NCBI GenBank assembly: GCA_017553205.1
Contig: JAFZMV010000049.1
Coordinates: 1-34,820 of the forward strand
DNA: 34,820 nt
Reading direction: 5' to 3'
Source: Selenomonadaceae bacterium
Lineage (GTDB): Bacteria; Bacillota; Negativicutes; Selenomonadales; Selenomonadaceae
The translations under genes and the position numbers were made by a program. Numbering within the stretch: the stretch's first letter is position 1; each line of letters opens with the position of its first letter. Shown here piece by piece: positions 3,838 through 34,472 of this stretch. Below the pieces are notes generated by a model. The model saw only the letters and a program-made list of their open reading frames with translations. It had not been told where the DNA came from and ran no database searches.

Positions 3838-4833
3838 TCATTCATCTGTGGCTTTATCTTCGGTAATATCCTGAATCGGGAAAAGTTCGCTGATTCTTGC
3901 ATCAATCTCTCCAACATTCGGAACCCATGAGCCGTTGGAATTTTCGGAACCGGGCAACATTATAGTTGCAGGAGGATCTGAACTCATTTGGCGTAAAACG
4001 TTTGCCAAGTGAGCCGAGTCAAAAATTTCCGCACTGGTTTCCATTTTGTTTCTGAAAATATCGGCAATCGCGGGAAGTTTAGGAATTGTATCAAGCTGTA
4101 AAACTTTTGCATAGAGGGCTTTCATAAATTTTTGCTGGCGTTGAACTCTTCCTACATCTCCGAGCTTTTCTCCGAGAAATCTCAAATATTTTTGTGAATC
4201 CTCTCCGTTTAAATGCTGATAACCTTGACCGAGATGAATCGACAAACCTGACTCAGGGTCTTCATAATCCATATTTTCTTCAACGTAAATATCCAAGCCA
4301 CCCAAAACATCAATCAATTCCGCAAAAGTACTCATGCCGATAACAATATATTGATGAATCGAAACTCCCAAAAGTTGCGAAACATGACGGACGAGTAAAT
4401 TTGCTCCTCCCCAGCTGTATAAATTTCCCAAATGACCATAAGAAGAATTTGAACTGACCCAAGTATTTCGAGGAATTGAAATAAGACGCGATTTGCCTGT
4501 GTCATTTGAAAAACTCAAGACCAAAATTGTATCAGCTTGTTGTTCTCCCTGTTCTCCGTCGTCAATTCCCAGAATCAAAATATTTGTATAGCCGTCAAAT
4601 TTCGGATCAATCGCCCGTGCAGTTTTCCTGTCGTTGTAGCCTTGATACATTGTATCAAATTCGTTGTAAACTCTGCTGCCTACATTATACACCGATATTC
4701 CGACAAATAAAACTGCAGAAATCAAAAGAGATAAAATTACGCACATAAAAATCAGACGAAAAACTTTTATTTTCCGTCTTTTTCTTACTTTTTTTCTCTT
4801 TTGCTTAATATTTTCCTTAGTTTCATTTGTCAT
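3838..4833 (-). CDS. LytR-CpsA-Psr (LCP) family cell-wall glycopolymer ligase
   Basis: The product has about 331 residues: a very basic cytoplasmic N-terminus (KQKRKKVRKRRK), one membrane segment near residues 27-48, and an extracytoplasmic LCP domain. Domain motifs are NILILGID, QADTILVLSFS, ISIPRNTWV and the arginine-rich KYLRFLGEKLGDVGRVQRQQKF. LCP enzymes transfer lipid-linked anionic glycopolymers onto peptidoglycan or other acceptors. The canonical R-A/S-D-T and S-I-P-R-D are here Q-A-D-T and S-I-P-R-N, mild deviations at phosphate-binding positions. ATG at 4831-4833 is preferred. An in-frame GTG at 4840-4842 would add three residues. The gene lies 28 nt after the DUF4160 gene and 21 nt before rsfS. 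Confidence 0.9.
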   Translation of the reverse strand: MTNETKENIKQKRKKVRKRRKIKVFRLIFMCVILSLLISAVLFVGISVYNVGSRVYNEFDTMYQGYNDRKTARAIDPKFDGYTNILILGIDDGEQGEQQADTILVLSFSNDTGKSRLISIPRNTWVSSNSSYGHLGNLYSWGGANLLVRHVSQLLGVSIHQYIVIGMSTFAELIDVLGGLDIYVEENMDYEDPESGLSIHLGQGYQHLNGEDSQKYLRFLGEKLGDVGRVQRQQKFMKALYAKVLQLDTIPKLPAIADIFRNKMETSAEIFDSAHLANVLRQMSSDPPATIMLPGSENSNGSWVPNVGEIDARISELFPIQDITEDKATDE

Positions 4834-4861
4834 GACAGACACTGCCCTATAATTACGATTA

Positions 4862-18443: not shown

Positions 18444-20462
18444 ATGAATCCTCAAAAGTTTTTAAAAATTTTCTGCACGTTTGTTTTTGCAGTTTGTGCA
18501 TTTTTTATTTCGGGCTGTGACCTTGACGACGAAGACGACGTAAAAGAAAAAGTTACTTTCGCCGATGCTTACGATCCCAATGATACTTGGCTTGTGTACT
18601 GGTATATTTGCGGAAGTGACTTGGAGAGTGACGGCGGAGCGGCAAGCGAAGACATTCAAGAAATGCTCAATGCAAATCTTCCCGACAATGTAAAAGTTCT
18701 GATTCAGGCGGGCGGTGCAAATCAATGGCATAACGCTGTCGTAAAATCTGGAAAAACAAATTTACTTCTCTACGACAAAGACGGACTTCACGAACTTGAA
18801 ACACAACCCGACGCAAACATGGGAGCGGCTGAAACTTTGGCGGGATTTTTACAGTACGGCAAAGATAATTTTCAAGCCGACCATAAAGTTTTTATCTTCT
18901 GGGATCATGGTGGCGGCAGTGCCTTCGGACTTTGTTTTGACGAAAGAACAGATGATTCTCTCAGCTTAAATGAAGTTCATGATGCGTTCGCGTCAGTTTA
19001 CAATAATTCTCCCGAAAATCCGCCTTTTGAAGTTATCGGCTTTGATACCTGTTTAATGGCAACTTATGAACTTGCAAACGATTTATACGGCTTTGCAAAA
19101 TATATGGTTGCGTCTGAAGAAGTTGAACCGGGCAACGGTTGGGAATATACGGGAATGTTGACGGCATTGGCTGAAAATCCTGCGATGGGTGGCGATGGTC
19201 TTGGTCAGTCAATCTGCGACACTTATTACCAAGGCTGTGAAGATGCTTGGACGGAAGACAGCGTTACTCTTTCAGTTATCGACTTATCCAAAATTCCGCA
19301 ACTCCGACAGGCTTATGAAAATTTCGGTGCAGAGGCTTTAAAATTATCTGCTGAAAATCCAAAAAAATTCTTCTCTAATCTCGGCAGACATGCCAAACGT
19401 TCCGAAAATTACGGCGGTAATACTCGTGAGAGCGGTTATTACGATATGATTGACCTTGCTGACTTGGCGAAAAAATCCAAAGAACTTCTCCCGCAGACTT
19501 CCGAAAATTTAATTAATGCGATTGACGATGCAGTTGTTTACAAAATCAACGGCGAATATCGAGATCAGGGCAGCGGGATTTCAGGTTTTTATCCTTATGA
19601 CGGCGGCGAACAAATGTTGAGTATGTACTCTCAGATTTATTCCGCTCCGCTCGCTCAAAAATGTTTGTACCACCATTTAATTTATGGCGTTATGCCTCCC
19701 GAAGCTGAAAAGGTTTTGCAAAATGCTGCAATACAAGAAGTTCAATCCGTTTCTCAACCCTCAGGAAAGAAACAAATTTTCAATATTGCAGACTTGGAAG
19801 ACACAAAAATAAAACTTGATAAAAATTATAACGCTTATGTCAAATTAAATTCCGCACAGATGGATATTGTATCAAGCGTCCATTGTATTTTAGCTTACGT
19901 TGATGTTGAAAATGATATTATTCTTTATCTCGGCAGTGATTCAAATGTTGATGCAGACTGGGATAAAGGAATTTTCAAAGACAATTTTGACGGAACTTGG
20001 ATGATGTTGGAAGGTTATCCCGTTTATGTTGAAGTTACTGCTGATGAAGAAGATTATATTTTGTACTCCGTGCCGATAAAATTAAACGGCGTAAGATGTA
20101 ATTTAGAAATCGCCTATAATTACGACGAAAAAAATTATAAAATTCTCGGTGCAAGAAGAAAATACGACGATAAAAAAATGGCTGACAAAAATTTAATCAA
20201 ATTGAAATCGGGCGACAAAATTACAACTTTGCATTACGGCATGACAATCAGCGGAAATGATACAGACTTTACCGAAGTTGAAGTCGATACATTTACTGTC
20301 GGAAACAAACAGCCCGTCTTTGCTGATGAAAGTGTTGGCAGTGGCGAATATTTGTACTGTTTTGAGTTTGTTGCTCCGAATAATGAAACTGCAACTTCAG
20401 AATTTGTAAACTTCACTGTTAAGGACGACGGCTCAATTACAACGACTAAACTTACAGATTAA
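18444..20462 (+). CDS. Clostripain-like (C11) cysteine peptidase lipoprotein
   Basis: The 672-residue product begins with a lipoprotein signal peptide: hydrophobic residues 8-22 and lipobox ISGC with Cys25. An acidic linker follows, then a clostripain (peptidase C11) domain at about 45-400. The catalytic dyad is visible as His155 in WDHGGGS and Cys203 in FDTCLMA, with the N-terminal WLVYWYICGSDLES strand typical of the family. C11 enzymes usually cleave after basic residues and can self-activate. The C-terminal part (about 420-672) is beta-rich without a recognised domain. It has its own SD (AGGAGG) and is framed by terminators, so it appears monocistronic. It should act at the cell surface. 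Confidence 0.9.
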   Translation: MNPQKFLKIFCTFVFAVCAFFISGCDLDDEDDVKEKVTFADAYDPNDTWLVYWYICGSDLESDGGAASEDIQEMLNANLPDNVKVLIQAGGANQWHNAVVKSGKTNLLLYDKDGLHELETQPDANMGAAETLAGFLQYGKDNFQADHKVFIFWDHGGGSAFGLCFDERTDDSLSLNEVHDAFASVYNNSPENPPFEVIGFDTCLMATYELANDLYGFAKYMVASEEVEPGNGWEYTGMLTALAENPAMGGDGLGQSICDTYYQGCEDAWTEDSVTLSVIDLSKIPQLRQAYENFGAEALKLSAENPKKFFSNLGRHAKRSENYGGNTRESGYYDMIDLADLAKKSKELLPQTSENLINAIDDAVVYKINGEYRDQGSGISGFYPYDGGEQMLSMYSQIYSAPLAQKCLYHHLIYGVMPPEAEKVLQNAAIQEVQSVSQPSGKKQIFNIADLEDTKIKLDKNYNAYVKLNSAQMDIVSSVHCILAYVDVENDIILYLGSDSNVDADWDKGIFKDNFDGTWMMLEGYPVYVEVTADEEDYILYSVPIKLNGVRCNLEIAYNYDEKNYKILGARRKYDDKKMADKNLIKLKSGDKITTLHYGMTISGNDTDFTEVEVDTFTVGNKQPVFADESVGSGEYLYCFEFVAPNNETATSEFVNFTVKDDGSITTTKLTD

Positions 20463-22264: not shown

Positions 22265-24220
22265 GTGTTAATTATTTTTTTAAAGGACTTGATAAAAATT
22301 TTTAATTTTGACGAAAAACAAAAAAAGTTTTTTCAACGTGCAATAATTTCTGCGTTGATTTATTTTTATTTGATGAATGTTTTTTATGTAGACATGGGAC
22401 AAGTCATGGGAGCAACTTATATTGTCCCGTCATTCGTTCCGATGATTTTCTTTTTGTTCGTCGGACAAGTTGCACTAAACGAAATAATTTTTTCAAAAAA
22501 ACTTCTTCCAAATTTATTGACAGGCTTGGCATGGTGCGTGACATTTATTTTGGTTTATACTTGGACTTATCAAAAACCATGGTTCATGTCGTTAATATGT
22601 TATGATTTTGTAGTTGGGACGGCAATTTTTTTATTTTTGTCTAGTCTGGAAGTTTTATTCACAAGAATTTTTTCTGCAAGAATAACGGCGGCGATAATTT
22701 CAATTTTAAATTTTTTCTGCTTGGTGATTCCGTTTATTCAAGCGGTTTATTATTGCATGTTCTGGCATTGTCTTTCGCCTGCGTCGTTGATGGCTCTTTA
22801 TCTGACGAACTGGAAGGAAAGTATAAATTTTATTCAGTCGAATATCGGGACGGTTGGAACAATTTTAATTTTCGCGGGAATATTTTTTCTGCTCCGACTT
22901 GCTTATAAATTCCATAAAAATTTCTGTGAAAATTTTCAGACGAAAAATTTTTCCACTCTGCAAAAAATTTCCGCCGTGATAACTTTGCTCGGAAGTTTTT
23001 GGGCGTTAATTTATTTTGTTCCTCAAACTTCCATTGCGGGACTTTGGAAAAATGTCACCGATTATGTTGCCGAAACTCAAAAATTTTCTCATAACTACGA
23101 CGAAAGATTTGCAAATTTGAAAATCGACGCTGAAAAAACTTTAGCTGCAAAAGCTCACGGCACTGTAATTTTTGTTATCGGTGAATCTGCCAGCAGAAGT
23201 TATATGCATGCTTTTACTCCCGATTTTCCTTTTGAAAATACTGTGTGGCTTGACAGTAAACTTTCAGACGAAGAAAAAATTTCACGCGGAAAAAATTTTG
23301 ATTTGCTTGTGAAAGTTCATGAAGATTTTCAGCAGAATGAAAAAAATTCTCCCAATCTTGCACCGACTGACGGAGAATTTTTAATTTTTCAAAATGCTTA
23401 TGCCTCGTGGTCGCAGACTGTTCCGGTTTTACAGCGTGCTTTGACGGAGCAGAGCCAGTACAATCAAAAAGAATTTTATGATTCTCTTTCGATTATTGAC
23501 GCGGCAAAAAAGGCGGGATATAAAACTTATTGGTTCAGCAATCAGGGACGTTACGGAGAATATGACAGTGCCATAACTTTGGTTGCGAAAACTGCGGACG
23601 TTTCGGAATGGACTGACGATGCTTATGATTTTTCAGACATTGAAGACGAACGTCTTTTAAAATTTTTTGAAAAAGTTAATCCCGCAGAAAATAATTTTAT
23701 AGTTTTTCATTTGATGGGAAGTCACATTTACTATAACAATCGTTATCCGCGAAGTTTCAAAAAATGGGTGACTGCCGACGGAACTGGAATGATGACATCT
23801 GCGGCGGCTTATGCAAATACAATTTTATATACTGATTTTGTTTTGTCGAAAATTTTTGACTACGCGAAGGAAAATTTAAATCTGCAGTCGATGATTTATT
23901 TTTCAGATCACGGCGAAGATTTGCAAATTTCTCATAATCCTGACGTTTTTAGTTTTGATATGGTTCGTATTCCGTTTTTTATTTACTTGTCGCCCGAATA
24001 TGAAAAAATTTTTCCCGAACAAAAAAATATTCTCAAAGCTCACCGCCGAGAATATTTTACAAATGATATGATTTATGATACGGTCTGCGGAATTTTAAAT
24101 GCGAAGTCCGAAAATTATGACGCGGGACAAGATTTTTCTTCCGCCGAATACAAATTCAACCGAGAAAATTTAACTACAATGTTGGGGCAAAGAAAAATTT
24201 CTGATGACATTGAAAATTAA
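22265..24220 (+). CDS. EptA-like membrane phosphotransferase (alkaline phosphatase superfamily)
   Basis: The product has up to 651 residues: five hydrophobic segments within about residues 25-265, then a periplasmic sulfatase-fold domain. Domain motifs are VIFVIGESASRSYMHAF, with the nucleophile position at Ser308 after Glu307, YASWSQTVPVLQRALT, FHLMGSH and YFSDHGEDL near 550 for metal binding. This architecture is that of lipid A or LPS phosphoethanolamine transferases and related phosphoglycerol transferases. Most EptA enzymes use Thr at the nucleophile, while Ser occurs in sulfatase-like relatives, so donor and acceptor are left open. The drawn start is GTG 22265, without a ribosome-binding site. 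An AAAGGA at 22286 hints at a start slightly downstream. Confidence 0.85.
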   Translation: MLIIFLKDLIKIFNFDEKQKKFFQRAIISALIYFYLMNVFYVDMGQVMGATYIVPSFVPMIFFLFVGQVALNEIIFSKKLLPNLLTGLAWCVTFILVYTWTYQKPWFMSLICYDFVVGTAIFLFLSSLEVLFTRIFSARITAAIISILNFFCLVIPFIQAVYYCMFWHCLSPASLMALYLTNWKESINFIQSNIGTVGTILIFAGIFFLLRLAYKFHKNFCENFQTKNFSTLQKISAVITLLGSFWALIYFVPQTSIAGLWKNVTDYVAETQKFSHNYDERFANLKIDAEKTLAAKAHGTVIFVIGESASRSYMHAFTPDFPFENTVWLDSKLSDEEKISRGKNFDLLVKVHEDFQQNEKNSPNLAPTDGEFLIFQNAYASWSQTVPVLQRALTEQSQYNQKEFYDSLSIIDAAKKAGYKTYWFSNQGRYGEYDSAITLVAKTADVSEWTDDAYDFSDIEDERLLKFFEKVNPAENNFIVFHLMGSHIYYNNRYPRSFKKWVTADGTGMMTSAAAYANTILYTDFVLSKIFDYAKENLNLQSMIYFSDHGEDLQISHNPDVFSFDMVRIPFFIYLSPEYEKIFPEQKNILKAHRREYFTNDMIYDTVCGILNAKSENYDAGQDFSSAEYKFNRENLTTMLGQRKISDDIEN

Positions 24221-25645: not shown

Positions 25646-27214
25646 TTATTCAAATTCAATCGTCGCAGGCGGTTTACTCGTGCAGTCGTATAAAACTCTG
25701 TTCACGCCTTTAACTTCGTTGACAATTCTGTTTGCAACTGTGTTTAAAACATTCCAATCAATTTGAGCAGCGTCCGCCGTCATGAAATCATTCGTCAAAA
25801 CTGCACGGAGAACAATCGCATAATCATAAGTGCGACCGTCGCCCATAACTCCGACGGAACGCATATTTGACAGTGCGGCAAAATATTGACCAAGTTCGGG
25901 AGCAATTCCCGCCTTGAAAATTTCTTCGCGGTAAATTGCGTCAGCGTCTTGGACAATTTTTATTTTTTCTGCGGTAACCTCTCCAATAATTCTGATACCG
26001 AGACCGGGACCGGGAAAAGGTTGACGACTTACTAAATTTTCAGGGAGATTTAATTCGCGTCCCGCCTGTCTGACTTCATCTTTAAACAAAAGTCTGAGTG
26101 GTTCAATAATTTCCTTGAAGTCCACAAAGTCAGGAAGTCCGCCAACATTATGATGAGATTTTATAACGGCGGATTTTCCAAGCCCGCTTTCGATAACGTC
26201 AGGATAAATTGTTCCTTGTACCAAAAAATCTACTGCACCGATTTTTTTCGCAACGTCCTCAAAAACTCTGATGAATTCTTCGCCGATAATTTTTCTTTTG
26301 CGTTCTGGGTCAGTCACTCCCGCAAGTTTCTGCAAAAATCTTTCTCCCGCGTCAATTTTCATGAAATTCAAATCGTAATTCTTGAAAACTTCTTCGACTT
26401 CAACCGCTTCATTTTTCCGCAAAAGTCCATGATCTACAAAAACACAAGTTAAATTTTTTCCGACAGCTTTACTCAACAAAACTGCCGCAACTGATGAATC
26501 AACTCCGCCGCTCAATGCACAAAGAACTTTTCCGCCACCAATTTTATTTTTCAGTTCGGAAATTTTTTCTTCAACAAATGAATCCATTTTCCAATCTCTC
26601 GAACAGCCACAAATATCAACGAAGTTGGAAAAAATTTTTTTGCCTTCGACAGTGTGCAAAACTTCGGGGTGGAATTGGACGGCAAATAATTTTTTCTCCG
26701 AATTTTCCGCCGCTGCAATAGGACAACTTTCACTTTTTGCAGTCACAGAAAAATTTTCGGGCAATGAAAAAATTCTGTCACCATGACTCATCCAAACAAT
26801 AGAATTTTTTTCGACGTTTGAAAAAAGTTTTGAGTCAGAAATAATTTCAACTTCAGTTTTTCCGTACTCTTTGACTTCAGCAGGTTTAACTTCTCCGTTT
26901 AAAACATGAGTCATTGCCTGTGCACCGTAACAAATTCCAAGTACGGGAATATTTAATTCAAAAAGTTCTTTCGGTGGAAGAGCAGAATTTTTTTCGTAAA
27001 CACTTTGAGGGCCGCCCGTCAAAATAATTCCTTCAGGTTTCAAATCTTTTACGGCAGAAAAATTTATCGCCGTACCCAGTCCGCTTTTAATATTTTTATC
27101 GACAGAATTTTTTTCATCTGTCAGCGTGTGGACTTCACAGTAAACATTATTTTCACGGACACGACGAGCGATAAGCTGATTATACTGCCCGCCGAAATCT
27201 AAAACTAAAATCAT
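25646..27214 (-). CDS. guaA: GMP synthase (glutamine-hydrolysing)
   Basis: The 522-residue product has the two GuaA domains. The N-terminal class I amidotransferase carries the nucleophile Cys near 95 in GICYGAQ and the His-Glu pair in QFHPEV near 182. The C-terminal ATP-pyrophosphatase carries the P-loop LSGGVDSS near 236-242 and the dimerisation domain ending in [11 protein letters not shown]. It converts XMP, glutamine and ATP to GMP, releasing pyrophosphate, in purine synthesis. GAGGTG precedes the ATG by 6 nt. The leader is only about 25 nt, so no purine riboswitch fits upstream. Confidence 0.98.
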
Positions 27215-27294: not shown

Positions 27295-27346
27295 TTACCG
27301 CAAAAATTACGGATATTTTTTTATTTTGTTTGAAAGGAAAAAAATT

Positions 27347-30300
27347 ATGGCTTTAAAAAACTTAGCTGATAAACTTTATTCGACGTTTATGAAAAACTTT
27401 CCGAATGAATCTTCGGAAGTTTGCAAAATATTTTTATCTGCCTCCGACATGAAAACTCGTGCGGTTGTCAGAAATGCATCTGCAACTTCTCCAAAAGAGG
27501 CTTGGGAAATTGCACTTGAAGAATTGAAAAAAATTCTTAAGTCCGAAAAAATTGATCCCGTTATTCTTCGTGCAGACTGGGTTATTTCTTCCGAAAAAAT
27601 TACTTGGGAAAATTTTATTAAATTGGTTGAAGATACCCGCAGAAATTATTTTCGCAAAGGTCTTGCACTTGACAGCGATTACAAAATTGCTTTCACGGAA
27701 ATGGAAATGAACGGAAATGCCATGCTTTATCAAGGTGGAAAAGAAGGCAGTGCATATGGTGTTTTCCGCCAAAATCGCAGTGATACCTACTGTCAAAAAC
27801 GTTTCGGCATGGATTTTCCGACACCCTCACCGACTGACACAGTTGAAATTTTTGAAACTCAAGGTGTCTTTATTCAAGAAAATGAAGAACCAAAATTTAT
27901 TACGGGAAAAGATATTTATGCAGGTCGCCGCGATACTTCTACTATTGATTCCGAACTTTTTATGACTCTGGCGAAAAACGGTGCAAAATATTTGGCGGGA
28001 CAAGTTCAAAAATCCGGAAAATTTATTTACGGCTATCATACTTGTTTTCATAATCAGATAAAAACTTATAACACTCTGCGTCATATGAGTTCAACTTTTG
28101 CCATGCTTGATGTTTACGGAGCATACAAAAAAATGCCTCCTATCAAACTCGGCAAAGCAATTATAAACGCTGTAGAATATGCTGTTAAAAAATTTATTTC
28201 TTACAGAACTTTGGATGACGGAACAAGAGCGGCTTATCTTGCCGATCCTTTCAGCGAAGAAATAAAACTCGGCGGCAACGGCGTTTCACTTCTCGCACTC
28301 GTGAAATATACCGAACTCATGCACACGAAAAAATATCTGCCTCTTATGAAAGAACTTGCCAACGGAATTTTATCAATGCAAAATCCTGACGGTTCATTTG
28401 TTCACGTTTTAAACACTTCAGATTTTTCAGTTAAAGAGCCTTTTAGAATTGTTTATTATGACGGCGAAGCAGTTTTTGGAATGTTGCGTTTGTACTCCAT
28501 AACTAAAGATGAAAAATTACTTCAAGCATCTGTTTTGGCGTTTGAACGTTTTATCAAAACGAATCATTGGAGAAATCATGATCATTGGCTTTCTTATGCC
28601 GTCAATGAACTTACAAGTTATAAACCTGAAGCAAAATATTTTGAATTCGGAATAAATAACTTTTTGGGTTTTCTGTCGTTTATTTATCACAGAGATACTC
28701 AATTTCCAACTTTAATGGAATTGATGATGGCGGCAGATACCATGCTCGAACGCTTGAAAACCATGCCGGAAATGTCAGAACTTTTGCAAAGAGTCAACTT
28801 TAATGATTTTTATGCGGCATTGGAGAAACGTGCAGAAAATTTATTAAACGGATATTTCTGGCCCGAACTTGCCATGTATTTTGCAAAACCCGAAGTTATT
28901 GCAGGAAGTTTTTTCATTCGTCACCATGCTTTCAGAGTTCGCATTGATGATGTTGAACATTATCTTTCCGGTTTTGTTGCTTATTGCCGTTATCTTGAAC
29001 GCAGAAAAAATCTTCCAGCACCCGTTCCCACTCAAAAACTTCTTGGCGGAAAAGCGGAAGGTACAGGAATTTTTAATATTCAATCGACTGAAGTTACACT
29101 GGAATCGACTGAAAAAGTTATAACGGAATCCAATGAAGAAAAAAAATTTTCTCCATTAGAAGTGAATTCGTCGAACCTTGATACAGAAACTGCCGAAAAA
29201 ATAAATTTTCAAATTGATAACCCTGATGAAGTTGACATAGAAGACTTTAAAAAAAAATTAAAATCGAATAATGCTGAAATTTTTTTCATGCTGGACAACA
29301 TTGAAAAAAATGCCCCTGGTCTTGAATTGTCAGCTTTCCGCCGTGCAAAATTTTTTAAAAAATATTTCGACGTTAATGTCTGCTTTATGATAAATGCTTT
29401 CCAGAATAACATTCAGGAGCAAATAAACCATTATCAACTTGACAGTAATTTTTTGAATATGTACGATTATTTTCAAGAGATTGACAGAAAAAATTTTGTA
29501 TCTTCAAATCAAACAGTGTTGATAAATCCCGACAAAAACATTTATCGTGATACTTACGATCCTTTAGGTTTTTTAAGCAGACGAAAAAAATTTGATTCTA
29601 CTATTAAGCAGCCGTCTGAGATAATTTATTATCGCCCAGACGGCACGGAGGCTTTATTTGAATCATATGAATTTGTTAATAATGAAAATGTTTTAAAATC
29701 CGCCGAACTTATAGGAAGGGATAAAACTGTTATAAAAAAATTTTCTTCGCGAAAAGAATTGATTTCGTATTGGGTTTTGTCCGTACTCAACGATAAAGAA
29801 AAAAAATATATTTTAATCGGTGACAGAGGGGCATCGTACATACAAACTTATATTAACATTAAAACAAATGCTTCGAAAAATTTTTATGTTTTTCATGTGA
29901 TTCATAACACACATTTTATCGGCTCAAATCCTTCTAAAAGTCGCATACGAATTAGAAACTGTTATCTGTACGATGACAGACTGCAGGCAAATGGAATTAT
30001 TGTTTTCACTCAACATCAGAAAGAAGATATTTTACGGCGTTTTCAGTTAAATAATGTTTTTGTTGTTCCACATTCGTTGAAAGATTTTTCTCCGTCCGCA
30101 GTGGAAGTCGATCCGTTCAAAATTATTTTTGTCGGCAGACTTGTTGAACAAAAAGATCCTGTAAAAACTTTGGAAGCCTTTAAAATTGTTTCTCAGGCTG
30201 TGCCGCAGGCTCATTTGCATTTTTACGGCGAAGGTGGCAGAAGACGAGAGCTTAAGGAAAAAATAGAACTCTATGGTTTGCAGGATAAAGTTTTTTTTGA

Positions 30301-32452
30301 AGGCTTTGTTACAAATATTGCAGATGTGTATTGTTCTGCTGCTTTGTCTTTATGCACAAGTAAATTTGAAGGTTTTTCTATGTCAAATCAAGAGAGTTTA
30401 CAGCTGGGGTGTCCTGTTGTTTCATTTGATTGCAATTATGGTCCTTCGGATATGATTATAGACGGTGTAAACGGTTTTCTTGTAAAGCCCGGCGATGTGG
30501 AAACGATGGCACAAAAAATTATTCTTATACTTCAAAATCCCGAACTGCGTCAAACACTTTCTAAAAATGCACCCGATACTGTGCAAAAATATGCTCCGCC
30601 TGTGGTTGCAAAAAAATGGGCTAATTTGTTCTCAGATTTATTGACCGATGAACTGCCTGTGAATTCTGAAGAAACCATTCCGAAAAATTTTGAAACTGAA
30701 AAGACTTTTGATGAGACCAATTCCACCATGAAAGGTTTGACTGAAACCATGCTTAAAGCTCTTCAGATGCTCGGCATTGACACTTCATCTCCGATTTTTT
30801 CAGATAAAACATTGAAAGCACCTTCAGATTATTTGGGAGAGGATTTTGTTTTAAACTCGGATTCAAGAAATATTTTGTGTCGTGCTTGTAGAATATCGGA
30901 TAGAGATTTAAATGCCGATTACAACATTTTCAGAAGTCAATACTTGGCTCAAAAACCTCTCAAAAAGACTGAAACAGATATAACAGTTTACTTCTGTGAC
31001 TACATGCTTTTTTCTCGTCCAAATGACTGCGATATACACGATTATTTTGACTTTGAATTTTATAATAAGTCTTTGGAAGTACAACAAACCTTTATTTGCG
31101 GAAACAATCGCCGTAAGCATAATCGCGTTGGAAATGATCGGCAGTATGTCAGAGTGTTGGCACATAAATTCCGCACGAATAAATTATTTTCTGATTTTAT
31201 TCACAGAGATTGGATTATCACAACAGAATGTACTTTTGAGGAATTTAAGAATTTTGTTACCAAACACCCAAAATTTTTCTCAAAAACCAATTTTGGCGGC
31301 GGCGGAAAAGGCGTTGAAGTTGTTCAAATTGATTCGGATTCAGATTTGGAAAATATTTTTTCAAGATTAAAAAGTGAAGAACGACTGTTGGAAGAACCGA
31401 TTTTGCAGAACGAAATCATGAAAAGTTTTTGTCCTGACACATTAAACACCGTAAGAATAAACACTTTTTTAGATATACACAATGTTGTTCACATTTTGAC
31501 AGCCAGTGGCAGATTTGGACGACTTGGAAATATCGTAGATAATTTTCATGGTGGCGGATTTTCTGTTACAATAGACGTAAAAACGGGAATAATCATTTCA
31601 GACGGATTGAACAGAGTTCATGAGCGTTTGAAAAAACATCCCGATACAGGAAAAATCTTCAGAGGTTTTCAATATCCTTTTTGGGAAAAAGTATGTAAGA
31701 CCGTTATTCAAATGGCAAAAAAAATCCCTCAAATGCGTCATGTAGGATGGGATATTGCCATAAATGCACAAGGAGATATTGATCTTGTAGAGGCTAACGA
31801 TGCACCTGCCACCGATGTTCAGCAAGCTCCTGATTCAATCGGCAGATTTTATCTTTATAAGCCTCTTGTTGAAGAATTAGAAAATTATAATTCGGCGATG
31901 ATGAAATTTTTAGGCTATCGAGTCAATAATCTTAATAATTTCAATAAAGCATATGAAACAGATTCCGGTCGCAGTCCTGAAAGATTACAGTTGGCGATAG
32001 CAAAATTATCTGCGAATTGTTTAAGTTTGCTTGATTTGGGTTGTCGAGAAAATAAATTAGTCAAGACACTTTGCCCTGATAATGTCAAATATTATCCTGT
32101 CGATTATAAAAATTTTGACGACGAAGTTATTGTTTGCGATTTTAATAAAGGTGAATTCCCGAATATTAAGGTTGATGCCTGCCTTTGTGCGTATACTGCA
32201 GAATATGTTACATGTCTTCCGGAATTTTTGAAAAAAATGTGTACATCTACTCTAAAACAAATTTTGATGTTGTGTCGTCCTGTAGACAAAGAAAGAAGAT
32301 TTCGTTACAGATGGAATCACCCATTTCAAACTGATTTTACGGAACAGTTTTTGATTGAAACGCTTGAAAAAAATAATTTCAAATTAAATTCGGCTGTTTC
32401 GTGTCAAGGTAATTCTTCAGTTATTTTATATGACTTCAGAAGGATCATGTAA
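27347..32452 (+). CDS. Four-module surface-polymer enzyme: helical toroid, GT4 glycosyltransferase, ATP-grasp, methyltransferase-like
   Basis: The product has 1,701 residues without signal peptide or membrane segments. Residues 1-560 form an all-alpha, toroid-like region with repeated aromatic helices (GYHTCFHNQ, MQNPDGSFVHVL, YYDGEAVFGM) of unknown activity. After a low-complexity linker, residues 645-1100 are a GT4 glycosyltransferase with FVGRLVEQKDP and the EGFSMSNQE E-x7-E motif, resembling poly(glycerol-phosphate) glucosyltransferases. Residues 1185-1510 fit a sugar-transfer-associated ATP-grasp, with the glycine-rich loop TNFGGGGKGVEVV and the metal-binding DLVEANDAPATD. Residues 1540-1701 have a Rossmann start, LLDLGCREN, then YYPVDY and VIVCDFN, like SAM-dependent methyltransferases. 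The start ATG follows GAAAGGA. recJ starts 25 nt downstream. Confidence 0.85.
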   Translation: MALKNLADKLYSTFMKNFPNESSEVCKIFLSASDMKTRAVVRNASATSPKEAWEIALEELKKILKSEKIDPVILRADWVISSEKITWENFIKLVEDTRRNYFRKGLALDSDYKIAFTEMEMNGNAMLYQGGKEGSAYGVFRQNRSDTYCQKRFGMDFPTPSPTDTVEIFETQGVFIQENEEPKFITGKDIYAGRRDTSTIDSELFMTLAKNGAKYLAGQVQKSGKFIYGYHTCFHNQIKTYNTLRHMSSTFAMLDVYGAYKKMPPIKLGKAIINAVEYAVKKFISYRTLDDGTRAAYLADPFSEEIKLGGNGVSLLALVKYTELMHTKKYLPLMKELANGILSMQNPDGSFVHVLNTSDFSVKEPFRIVYYDGEAVFGMLRLYSITKDEKLLQASVLAFERFIKTNHWRNHDHWLSYAVNELTSYKPEAKYFEFGINNFLGFLSFIYHRDTQFPTLMELMMAADTMLERLKTMPEMSELLQRVNFNDFYAALEKRAENLLNGYFWPELAMYFAKPEVIAGSFFIRHHAFRVRIDDVEHYLSGFVAYCRYLERRKNLPAPVPTQKLLGGKAEGTGIFNIQSTEVTLESTEKVITESNEEKKFSPLEVNSSNLDTETAEKINFQIDNPDEVDIEDFKKKLKSNNAEIFFMLDNIEKNAPGLELSAFRRAKFFKKYFDVNVCFMINAFQNNIQEQINHYQLDSNFLNMYDYFQEIDRKNFVSSNQTVLINPDKNIYRDTYDPLGFLSRRKKFDSTIKQPSEIIYYRPDGTEALFESYEFVNNENVLKSAELIGRDKTVIKKFSSRKELISYWVLSVLNDKEKKYILIGDRGASYIQTYINIKTNASKNFYVFHVIHNTHFIGSNPSKSRIRIRNCYLYDDRLQANGIIVFTQHQKEDILRRFQLNNVFVVPHSLKDFSPSAVEVDPFKIIFVGRLVEQKDPVKTLEAFKIVSQAVPQAHLHFYGEGGRRRELKEKIELYGLQDKVFFEGFVTNIADVYCSAALSLCTSKFEGFSMSNQESLQLGCPVVSFDCNYGPSDMIIDGVNGFLVKPGDVETMAQKIILILQNPELRQTLSKNAPDTVQKYAPPVVAKKWANLFSDLLTDELPVNSEETIPKNFETEKTFDETNSTMKGLTETMLKALQMLGIDTSSPIFSDKTLKAPSDYLGEDFVLNSDSRNILCRACRISDRDLNADYNIFRSQYLAQKPLKKTETDITVYFCDYMLFSRPNDCDIHDYFDFEFYNKSLEVQQTFICGNNRRKHNRVGNDRQYVRVLAHKFRTNKLFSDFIHRDWIITTECTFEEFKNFVTKHPKFFSKTNFGGGGKGVEVVQIDSDSDLENIFSRLKSEERLLEEPILQNEIMKSFCPDTLNTVRINTFLDIHNVVHILTASGRFGRLGNIVDNFHGGGFSVTIDVKTGIIISDGLNRVHERLKKHPDTGKIFRGFQYPFWEKVCKTVIQMAKKIPQMRHVGWDIAINAQGDIDLVEANDAPATDVQQAPDSIGRFYLYKPLVEELENYNSAMMKFLGYRVNNLNNFNKAYETDSGRSPERLQLAIAKLSANCLSLLDLGCRENKLVKTLCPDNVKYYPVDYKNFDDEVIVCDFNKGEFPNIKVDACLCAYTAEYVTCLPEFLKKMCTSTLKQILMLCRPVDKERRFRYRWNHPFQTDFTEQFLIETLEKNNFKLNSAVSCQGNSSVILYDFRRIM

Positions 32453-32477: not shown

Positions 32478-34472
32478 ATGCAAAAAAAATGGATAATAAA
32501 AACTGACGACCCTGTAAAAGTTTCAAGACTTTCAAAAGCGTTGGGAATAACTGAACTCACCGCAAAAATTTTAATTCATCGCGGAATCACCAGAGTTGAG
32601 GACGCAGAAAATTTTTTAAATCCCGAAAATGCTCCTTTCAATAATCCTTTTGACATGCTCGGAATGAATACGGCGGTTGAAAGAATTATTTCAGCGATTA
32701 ACGACGGAGAAAAAATTTGCGTTTACGGAGATTATGACGTTGACGGAGTTTCTGCATCGGCTATTATGATTCGTGCTTTAAAAAGATTCGGTGCAGATGT
32801 TGAAAGTTATATCCCGAAACGTTCAGAAGGTTACGGCTTAAATATTCCCGCACTTCAAAAAATTTCTGAAAGCGGCACAAAACTTTTAATTTCTGTGGAT
32901 TGCGGAATTTCAAACGAAAAAGAAATTTCTGCTGTCTGCGAAAATCTTGATGTAATTGTTACGGATCATCATCTTGAAGCGTTGGAAAAAGTTGTGAGTG
33001 CAGTTGTCGTTATAGATCCTCATCAAATCGGCTGTAATTATTCGGAAAAAAATTTATGCGGTGCTGGTGTCGCTTTTAAAATTTGTCAGGCTCTTGCTCA
33101 AAAAATTGACGGAACAGATTTTTCAGACTACACGACTGATATTGAACTTGCTGCCCTTGCTACTGTTGCCGATTTGGTTCCGCTGACCGGGGAAAACAGA
33201 AAAATTGTTCGCATGGGTTTAAATGCCATGCCTTTGACGGAATGTATCGGACTTCGCGAACTTATAAAAGTTTCAGATCTTGAAAATAAAAAAATTTCTG
33301 CGGGACATATCGCTTTTAAAATTGCTCCTCGTTTAAATGCTGTCGGTCGTCTTGAATCTGCGTCGGAAGGATTAAAACTTTTATTGACTGAAAATTTTGA
33401 AGAGGCTAAAGAACTCGCAAAAAAACTCGACAAAACCAACCAAGAAAGAAAAAATATTGAAACTGAAATGTTGCAAAAAGCTGAAGAAAAAGTTTTAAAA
33501 ATTCGTGAAGATTGTGCAGGAATTTTATCTTCGTTCATAATTGCGGGAGAAAATTGGAATGCGGGAGTAATCGGGTTGACTGCGTCGAAACTTGTTGAAA
33601 AATATAATCTGCCGACAATAATTTTATCTGTTGAAGGAGAATTTGCTCGCGGTTCCTGCAGAAGTATTCCCGCACTTCACATGAAAAATGCACTTGATTC
33701 AATGGCAGAAATTTTTGAGCAGTACGGCGGACACTCTCAAGCGGCTGGACTTTCAATAAAAACTGAAAAAATTCCTGAACTTCAAAAACGTTTTGATGAA
33801 TATGTCAGAAAAAATTTGAGCGACGAAGATTTTCTTCCGATTTTAAATGTTGACGCTCTTTTGCACCCTGCTGAATTGACTGTCGCCGATGCTGAAGAAT
33901 TTGAAAAATTTAAACCGTGCGGCATGGGAAATCCTCGCCCGATTCTTGCTTGTCAAAAAATTCGCGGAAATTCTGCAAAGACTGTCGGAAAAAACAGAAA
34001 TCATTTAAATTTTGTAATTTCTTCAGAAAATGACAGCTCAAAAAATATTCGTGCGGTTGCTTGGGATAAAGCAAATTTTGCGGCGATGATTGAAAATGAA
34101 TTTTTTGATATTTCTTATGAACCTGAAATTGATGAATGGCAAAATATTGTCAGAGTGCAATGCGTTGTAAATTATCTTGAACCGACTAAAGAAAATTTTC
34201 CGACTCGCGAAAATTTGGCGGAGATTTATAAATTTTTAAAATTCCTCGCCACGAAAAATAATTATTTTGAAATTTGCGATATTGCGAAAAAATTTAATTC
34301 CGCAACGGGAAAAAATTTTTCAACTTATACGATTTTAAATGCGGTAGATATTTTTCGTGAACTCGGTTTGATTCATGTGAACGAAAATGAAAATACTTTC
34401 GACATTCCCAAATGCAACAAAAAAATAAATCTGGAAAATTCAAGGACTTTTAGACTCGGAAATAATTTTTAA
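32478..34472 (+). CDS. recJ: Single-stranded-DNA-specific exonuclease RecJ
   Basis: This 664-residue DHH-family exonuclease degrades single-stranded DNA 5' to 3' in recombination and mismatch or base-excision repair. Motifs in order are VYGDYDVDGVSASA near residue 83, LISVDCGISN, the DHH motif in VTDHH near 160, LATVADLVPL, and in the DHHA1 domain NWNAGVIGLTASKL and the GGHSQAAGLS nucleic-acid-binding motif. An OB-like region follows. The last 90 or so residues add a helical, winged-helix-like segment (FEICDIAKKFN and onwards) beyond the E. coli core. The ATG has GGAG 9 nt upstream and follows the large enzyme gene by 25 nt, so it is probably cotranscribed. Confidence 0.96.
   Translation: MQKKWIIKTDDPVKVSRLSKALGITELTAKILIHRGITRVEDAENFLNPENAPFNNPFDMLGMNTAVERIISAINDGEKICVYGDYDVDGVSASAIMIRALKRFGADVESYIPKRSEGYGLNIPALQKISESGTKLLISVDCGISNEKEISAVCENLDVIVTDHHLEALEKVVSAVVVIDPHQIGCNYSEKNLCGAGVAFKICQALAQKIDGTDFSDYTTDIELAALATVADLVPLTGENRKIVRMGLNAMPLTECIGLRELIKVSDLENKKISAGHIAFKIAPRLNAVGRLESASEGLKLLLTENFEEAKELAKKLDKTNQERKNIETEMLQKAEEKVLKIREDCAGILSSFIIAGENWNAGVIGLTASKLVEKYNLPTIILSVEGEFARGSCRSIPALHMKNALDSMAEIFEQYGGHSQAAGLSIKTEKIPELQKRFDEYVRKNLSDEDFLPILNVDALLHPAELTVADAEEFEKFKPCGMGNPRPILACQKIRGNSAKTVGKNRNHLNFVISSENDSSKNIRAVAWDKANFAAMIENEFFDISYEPEIDEWQNIVRVQCVVNYLEPTKENFPTRENLAEIYKFLKFLATKNNYFEICDIAKKFNSATGKNFSTYTILNAVDIFRELGLIHVNENENTFDIPKCNKKINLENSRTFRLGNNF

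Follow-up and report, generated by a model that had tools for sequence, protein, structure and literature searches.

TarM, the N-acetylglucosamine (GlcNAc) transferase of wall teichoic acid, takes teichoic acid as its acceptor, and cyanophycin synthetase applies ATP-grasp and Mur-ligase chemistry to Asp carboxylates, giving a free polymer with no ribosomal backbone. The O-GlcNAc transferases SdgA and SdgB act on staphylococcal Ser-Asp adhesins; glycosylation of serine-aspartate (SD) repeats by SdgB and the Sdg enzymes is described in two papers (PMC8561734, PMC3794999), and SdrI is described as carrying both serine-aspartate and alanine-aspartate repeats (PMC4850167). Asp-Ala adhesins such as BapA of Paracoccus are known biofilm factors. 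According to the available part of the BapA report, the protein contains 891 Asp-Ala repeats, is a predicted substrate of a type I secretion system (T1SS) and is required for biofilm; its apparent mass is above its true mass, the authors cannot exclude post-translational modification, and in that part the chemistry of such tracts is left unexplained and no modifying enzyme is named (PMC5588039). The subject of this work is a gene found in a stretch of 34,820 nucleotides from a Selenomonadaceae bacterium (JAFZMV010000049.1, referred to as the window), which is the entire contig C17 of the 171-contig genome assembly G000. Its product joins an N-terminal module (N) to a GT4 glycosyltransferase (GT), an ATP-grasp (AG) and a methyltransferase-like (MT) module. 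The fusion was read, with a probability of about 0.58, as a multi-module and probably cytoplasmic modification enzyme for large secreted surface proteins, either bearing (Asp-x)n tracts or of the RTX/type I secreted class. Such an enzyme would probably decorate adhesins before their export, not build a cell-wall polymer. Among the matches listed in the open-access literature, nothing linked Mur ligases, ATP-grasps or N with adhesins of this kind, and no paper was found there on 'sugar-transfer associated ATP-grasp'. The gene is divided as follows (positions are those of the window).

27347..32452, + strand: fusion protein N-GT4-AG-MT, 1,701 residues in an uninterrupted frame; relatives share its modules
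27347..29086, + strand: N module, residues 1-580; an unnamed family with no Pfam match over cut-off
29087..29266, + strand: acidic linker, residues 581-640 (approximate boundary)
29267..30661, + strand: GT4 module, residues 641-1105; SdgA/SdgB/TarM-like
30662..30721, + strand: linker between GT4 and AG, residues 1106-1125 (approximate boundary)
30722..31876, + strand: AG module, residues 1126-1510, of the ATPgrasp_ST type (Pfam match at 1259-1496)
31877..32449, + strand: MT module, residues 1511-1701, a methyltransferase-like Rossmann segment

Long Asp-Ala runs were present in the first neighbours of N genes that were read, in Staphylococcus simulans, Listeria and Agrobacterium. For searches of whole genomes, 26 N-positive proteobacterial genomes were hand-picked from a set of 78 N loci (non-Selenomonad only), before the tracts had been noticed and after T1SS and adhesin labels had been seen; a label of adhesin homology, which may itself reflect the tract, was carried by 13 of the 26 picked loci and by 26 of the 62 non-Selenomonad loci. 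A match to an Asp-Ala-type tract (E<=1e-15) was obtained in 22 of the 26 genomes, and the best locus of each held a true Asp-x (D-x) run. In the control, a class sample of 274 genomes, N was found in two (E<=1e-50) and a tract match in four, one of them N-positive; the three N-negative matches comprised one true (DT)n tract and two loci without a D-x run. Tracts were scored in 22/26 N-positive against 1/272 N-negative genomes (Fisher p about 3e-28) and, when only unlabelled picks were counted, in 10 of 13 (p about 4e-15), both values ignoring relatedness and genome size. An open frame of 2,032 aa with a (DT)n tract was seen at L242, in a genome (G616) without N at E<=1e-50.

The genus of the window was represented by 66 genomes, with N in 17, AG-MT in nine and both in seven. 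Strong D-x tracts (mixes of DA, DS, DT and DG) occurred in 7 of the 17 N-positive and in none of the 49 N-negative genomes (p=2.5e-5), as read from the returned loci only, about one per genome. Ten N-negative genomes had weaker matches, none of whose loci showed a D-x run on that scale (at most 7 of 30 in score); two N-positive genomes, G019 and G066, had weak ones. In the tree, the N of the window was paired with that of G073 (99/95), and the remaining rows of its 10-row clade came from tract-bearing genomes, except G009. The genome of this sister N holds a long tract protein. What the co-occurrence demonstrates is an association rather than modification.

The flanks fetched for the 78 loci were scanned in six frames for runs containing at least eight D-x dipeptides. 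Such a run lay near N at 28 loci (28/62 outside the Selenomonads), counts that are probably low because several tracts reach contig ends. Among loci from a plasmid collection, nine of the ten read had a tract (L162, L163, L164, L166, L281, L283, L284, L285 and L286), that of Klebsiella (L281) being visible only in a wider 30-kb stretch. The tract proteins beside N in Gram-positive species were of the LPXTG type or were named pls and SdrF. Homologs of the T1SS protein HlyD (E<=1e-20) were present in 31/78 N loci, and in 16/26 of the genome-searched loci at the same threshold against 0.24 expected (60 matches in 139 Mb), an enrichment that may be inflated because the 26 loci were picked with T1SS/adhesin labels seen. 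In Klebsiella aerogenes (L281:2168-19756) the genes for the adhesin, TolC, ABC, HlyD and an N-GT4 fusion follow one another on one strand, and the tract is nearly pure (DS)n; both the (DS)n 'clumping factor' and the T1SS ATPase are broken. In S. epidermidis, SdrF is followed by N and then by a GT4-like gene on the opposite strand.

The partners of N were compared with the composition of the tracts at 37 tract loci, a partner being accepted within 3.5 kb. A Mur ligase was assigned at 27 loci, a GT at two and none was found at eight; with the transfer of the Lampropedia locus L145 (N-GT2) from the last group, three loci had a GT and seven had no partner found. The Ser/Thr share of the tract was <=0.39 in 25 of the 27 Mur-partnered loci and 1.0 in the other two, both from Methylobacter. 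At the GT-partnered loci it was 0.99 (Klebsiella N-GT4), 0.92 (S. epidermidis) and 0.71 (Lampropedia N-GT2; 3/3, one-sided p=0.007). One of the Mur loci, L098, is an N-methyltransferase fusion and was tallied there owing to a nearby Mur homolog. We infer that sugar is placed on Ser of (DS)n tracts and that an amide ligase acts on Asp of pure Asp-Ala tracts; the ligase fits the latter because Asp is the sole functional side chain there, and Ser can accept a sugar.

The catalytic modules of the fusion were assessed by profile searches and alignment. The initial annotation had described a single uninterrupted frame with four modules, among them a GT4 glycosyltransferase and an ATP-grasp, and this description was borne out: the frame has 1,701 open codons with zero stops (27347-32452, + strand) and the four modules were supported. 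The GT4 module matched PF00534 (1.2e-38, residues 916-1076) and the SdgA model (1.6e-55), with its active-site residues kept; its scores of 188.6 bits (SdgA) and 166.8 bits (SdgB) were below the NCBIfam cut-off of 800. In a PDB sequence search, the closest solved chains were those of SdgB (among them 7vfl and 7vfk; lowest E 8.7e-42), then TarM (2.4e-36). A phmmer alignment placed H853, R931, K936, E1008 and E1016 opposite SdgB His246, Arg329, Lys334, Glu406 and Glu414, described as donor-site residues (PMC8561734). The alignment also spanned, with gaps, the region of the DUF1975 acceptor-binding insertion. No SD-repeat protein gene was recognised adjoining the fusion gene in the window; such a gene adjoins two N relatives that have a GT.

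The AG module matched PF14397 (ATPgrasp_ST) at 1.9e-44, with 152.4 bits against a gathering score of 31.4. K1313, E1349, E1350, R1370, D1469, E1482 and N1484 were invariant in 17 AG modules; of these, K1313, E1349/E1350, D1469, E1482 and N1484 are taken here to be the ATP and Mg residues, so that the nucleotide site appears to be kept. Motif I of class I S-adenosylmethionine methyltransferases is glycine-rich (GxGxG). In the MT segment it is altered to DLGCRENK (1563-1570), GxGxG being absent, and D1586 is kept. Because D-x-G-C-R and D1586 were invariant across 17 MT modules, the segment is, judging by the alignment, conserved for some function. Methyltransf_23 matched 9 of the 17 members of alignment A2, from which two truncated modules of 18 were omitted (best 7e-6; the window member was not among the nine). 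The MT segment of the window had no Pfam match over cut-off, and a PDB profile search with AG-MT gave no match at 0.01. AG-MT matches were found in 17 of 300 class-sample genomes, as full modules in four of the genus of the window and as partial matches in the 13 others. Homologs of the MT segment only were seen in other genera (L186-L191), one of them within a 978-aa frame.

For N, no match over a curated cut-off was obtained in Pfam, NCBIfam or PDB sequence searches, and the best result of a PDB profile search was a short local match (0.0078). The statement of the initial annotation that N matches no nameable family holds as far as Pfam and NCBIfam go; N is nevertheless no orphan, 434 stretches of a GTDB-based species-level genome collection encoding relatives. 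A restriction of N to the genus of the window was considered and dropped after these 434 stretches had been found. The best 80 of the 434 were retained and gave the 78 loci used above, largely from Pseudomonadota; the named relatives of highest identity belonged to uncultured Selenomonadaceae/Selenomonadales, several from ruminant hosts. The conserved motifs of N were YYDGEA (370-375), HDHW (411-414) and FRVRIDDVEH (529-538), and the residues invariant across 73 sequences include E120, H246, D412 and E507. Weak Pfam matches of N members, all below cut-off, were to GH88 (7/23; best 0.0021), Pectate_lyase_2 (three) and GH127 (two), which we take to be toroid folds; the 'helical toroid' proposed for N would be a candidate fold, and is unproven.

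Same and split versions of the fusion were surveyed among relatives, as the initial annotation had proposed, and its modules were found as separate genes, as arrays and in other fusions. N occurred alone (about 570-620 aa) or with GT4, with PGA_cap and a Mur ligase, with one or two YheCD ATP-grasps or with a second N. The partners in the 78-locus set were a Mur ligase, PGA_cap with a Mur ligase, and YheCD, with single instances of a methyltransferase, GT2 and Mur with peptidase S11. In the genus, AG was joined to MT in the copies read that contig ends leave whole, and AG-MT formed single genes of about 590 aa and arrays, with as many as five genes at L065 and three at L066; G073 has N with three AG-MT units, the last one cut at the contig end. 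The five AG-MT genes of the first array (L065:6037-14801) lie between a PGM/PMM gene and PGM and PGI genes, with a gene for an RTX protein beyond PGM/PMM, and at L066:2743-7988 the three stand-alone AG-MT genes are in tandem. At L081:1917-17998 an N-YheCD gene lies between genes for large RTX proteins, one of 1,700 aa and the other of 1,775 aa or more, and adjoins a GT92 gene; there is no D-x tract at this locus. A single polypeptide for a whole surface-decoration step, which had been called unusual, is indeed so, yet it is one outcome of module shuffling in the genus.

Taken in order, N would recognise or act on the Asp-x tract or the adhesin that carries it, the association being observed. 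The GT4 module, by its conserved residues, would take sugar from a nucleotide-activated donor and place it on Ser/Thr residues of the substrate, in the manner of SdgA/SdgB. AG would spend ATP on an amide bond that links an amine or amino acid to a carboxylate, for instance that of an Asp side chain or of a sugar acid; ligation at a carboxylate is plausible. MT would methylate or merely bind, and the finished adhesin would then be exported, as the T1SS neighbours in relatives suggest. The chemistry of every module is here predicted from sequence. A wider proposal, to which we give somewhat less than even odds, is that of an unrecognised cross-phylum maturation system for adhesins with acidic dipeptide tracts, in which N handles (Asp-x)n, swappable GTs act on Ser/Thr of (DS)n, Mur ligases or ATP-grasps amidate Asp of (DA)n, and the protein of the window is a member with three chemistries.

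The part assigned to N can be drawn differently. It is conceivable, though distinctly less probable than the decoration of adhesins by the whole fusion, that N is itself the principal catalyst, such as a transferase or an epimerase whose target is an Asp-x tract or a sugar attached to it, and that the other modules perform successive tailoring. Within 3.5 kb of the N genes that lie beside tract proteins in Listeria and Enterococcus, no partner of the GT, Mur or ATP-grasp kind was found (the match in Enterococcus, split in two, may be broken), and the invariant E120, H246, D412 and E507 point the same way; however, such conservation would also fit a binding module, and N is without a characterised relative. 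It is unlikely that N serves as a dedicated chaperone or export adaptor, holding long acidic tracts in solution and passing them on to modifying enzymes and to secretion, with no chemistry of its own. The same association data agree with that role, as does the constancy of N while the partner chemistry varies, but at many loci N forms one polypeptide with catalytic domains, and its strongly conserved residues are typical of a site.

Several observations weigh against the assignment of the fusion to tract-bearing or type I secreted proteins. The fetched flanks of the 16 Selenomonad N loci yielded no D-x tract; in this group the link is by genome and not by neighbourhood, and no strong tract was found in 10/17 N-positive genus genomes, that of the window included. 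In G000 there were no D-x tract candidates, no D-x tract in 13 RTX-bearing stretches and no match to the non-repeat part of the G073 tract protein; this absence is weak evidence because the assembly is in 171 contigs and several tracts elsewhere are at contig ends, but it is still evidence. Within the window, nothing was recognised as an adhesin or T1SS gene. In Acinetobacter baumannii (L282:3541-11440) a stand-alone N lies beside a T1SS-target protein of 2,031 aa without a D-x tract, and a Mur ligase is paired with Ser tracts at the two Methylobacter loci and in one Oceanospirillum genome. The control was a class sample of one Gammaproteobacterium that included small genomes, and was unmatched in lineage and genome size. 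Finally, the position of the L065 array among sugar-phosphate mutase/isomerase genes, and of a GT92 gene beside the L081 N-YheCD gene, also fits glycan work.

In the species of the window, the substrate may be a tract-free RTX adhesin; alternatively, a tract may have been lost in assembly. RTX repeats are abundant in G000, at 36 places. A motif F-D/N-L-Q-x-F was located near the start of 5 of the 17 RTX-bearing frames read in this genome (L219-L231), and also starts the tract proteins of G073, G023, G081 and G046. An ENLTQE-like motif ends 8 of the 17 frames. The start and end motifs are perhaps a secretion signature of the genus.

The initial annotation had suggested the building of a glycopolymer followed by TupA-like ligation of an amino acid. 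On such a reading GT4 would extend a surface polysaccharide, the ATP-grasp would add an amino acid, and N would be a toroid that binds or acts on glycan. This received little contextual support and is judged improbable, a shade more so than a chaperone role for N. It draws on the naming of PF14397 for sugar-transfer association, on TarM as the next closest solved GT, on the PGM/PMM and PGI genes beside the L065 array (suppliers of sugar phosphates), on the adjoining GT92 gene of one N-YheCD gene, on the LCP-family glycopolymer transferase 22 kb off in the window and on the weak GH88-type matches of N. Against it, the neighbours guaA and recJ are no polymer genes, N co-occurs outside the genus with D-x adhesins and T1SS, beside which it stands in relatives, and SdgB, the nearest solved GT, outscores TarM, the neighbours of N not having been surveyed for glycan genes at all loci. 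An assembly or annotation artefact is very improbable: relatives do carry these modules as separate genes, but the frame is open throughout and the modules are fused otherwise in other genomes, and the reading was dropped on finding that G073 repeats the N/AG-MT fusion beside guaA.

The features around the fusion gene are the following.

27332..27339, + strand: putative ribosome-binding site GAAAGGAA, 7 bases 5' of the ATG at 27347
32478..34472, + strand: recJ, 25 bases 3' of the fusion stop
25646..27214, - strand: GMP synthase gene (guaA), divergent neighbour; frame read directly

A TTG 27 codons 5' of the ATG is possible as an alternative start; ATG is the start in most aligned relatives. 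The gene at 25646..27214 is taken to be guaA, as named in the initial annotation. A MATE transporter gene is listed with guaA and recJ among the neighbours of the fusion gene. recJ is possibly co-transcribed with the fusion gene and is outside the function proposed for its product. In G073, the gene in which N is fused to AG-MT without a GT adjoins purA and guaA (guaA by Pfam); because guaA adjoins both genes, the two appear to be versions of one locus that differ in the presence of the GT. The window also encodes an LCP-family glycopolymer transferase (3838-4842), a clostripain-like peptidase (18444-20462) and a CptA-like phosphoethanolamine transferase (22265-24220).

N is proposed as the mark of a candidate enzyme family for Asp-Ala repeat adhesins, on the strength of its co-occurrence with them in Pseudomonadota, in Gram-positive Bacillota and in Selenomonads. 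The prediction is that sugar will be found on tracts in which Ser alternates with Asp, and an amide-linked group where Ala alternates. Genes with N are named in records as 'Mur ligase family protein', 'poly(glycerol-phosphate) alpha-glucosyltransferase' or hypothetical, and the association may assign a role to those of the first two names that lie beside adhesins.

Compared with described systems, the AG module resembles the TupA-like ATPgrasp_ST proteins in passing the PF14397 cut-off with conserved residues, and differs from TupA in that it is joined to MT and that no teichuronopeptide or polyuronic acid gene context was found by the window gene. TarM is the next closest solved relative of the GT, and no adjoining gene points to teichoic acid. 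Cyanophycin synthetase is a model for the N-Mur partners, the protein of the window itself being without a Mur domain. The NCBIfam profiles nearest to the GT4 module are those of SdgA/SdgB, and its nearest PDB chains by sequence are those of SdgB. Unlike those enzymes, it is fused to N, ATP-grasp and MT, and no tract was found in its genome. The likeness to SdgA/SdgB extends to gene context, N relatives adjoining SD/DA-repeat adhesins and, once (S. epidermidis), a GT4-like gene as well. BapA of Paracoccus denitrificans, a protein of the substrate type and not an enzyme, exemplifies the proteins that occur together with N genes.

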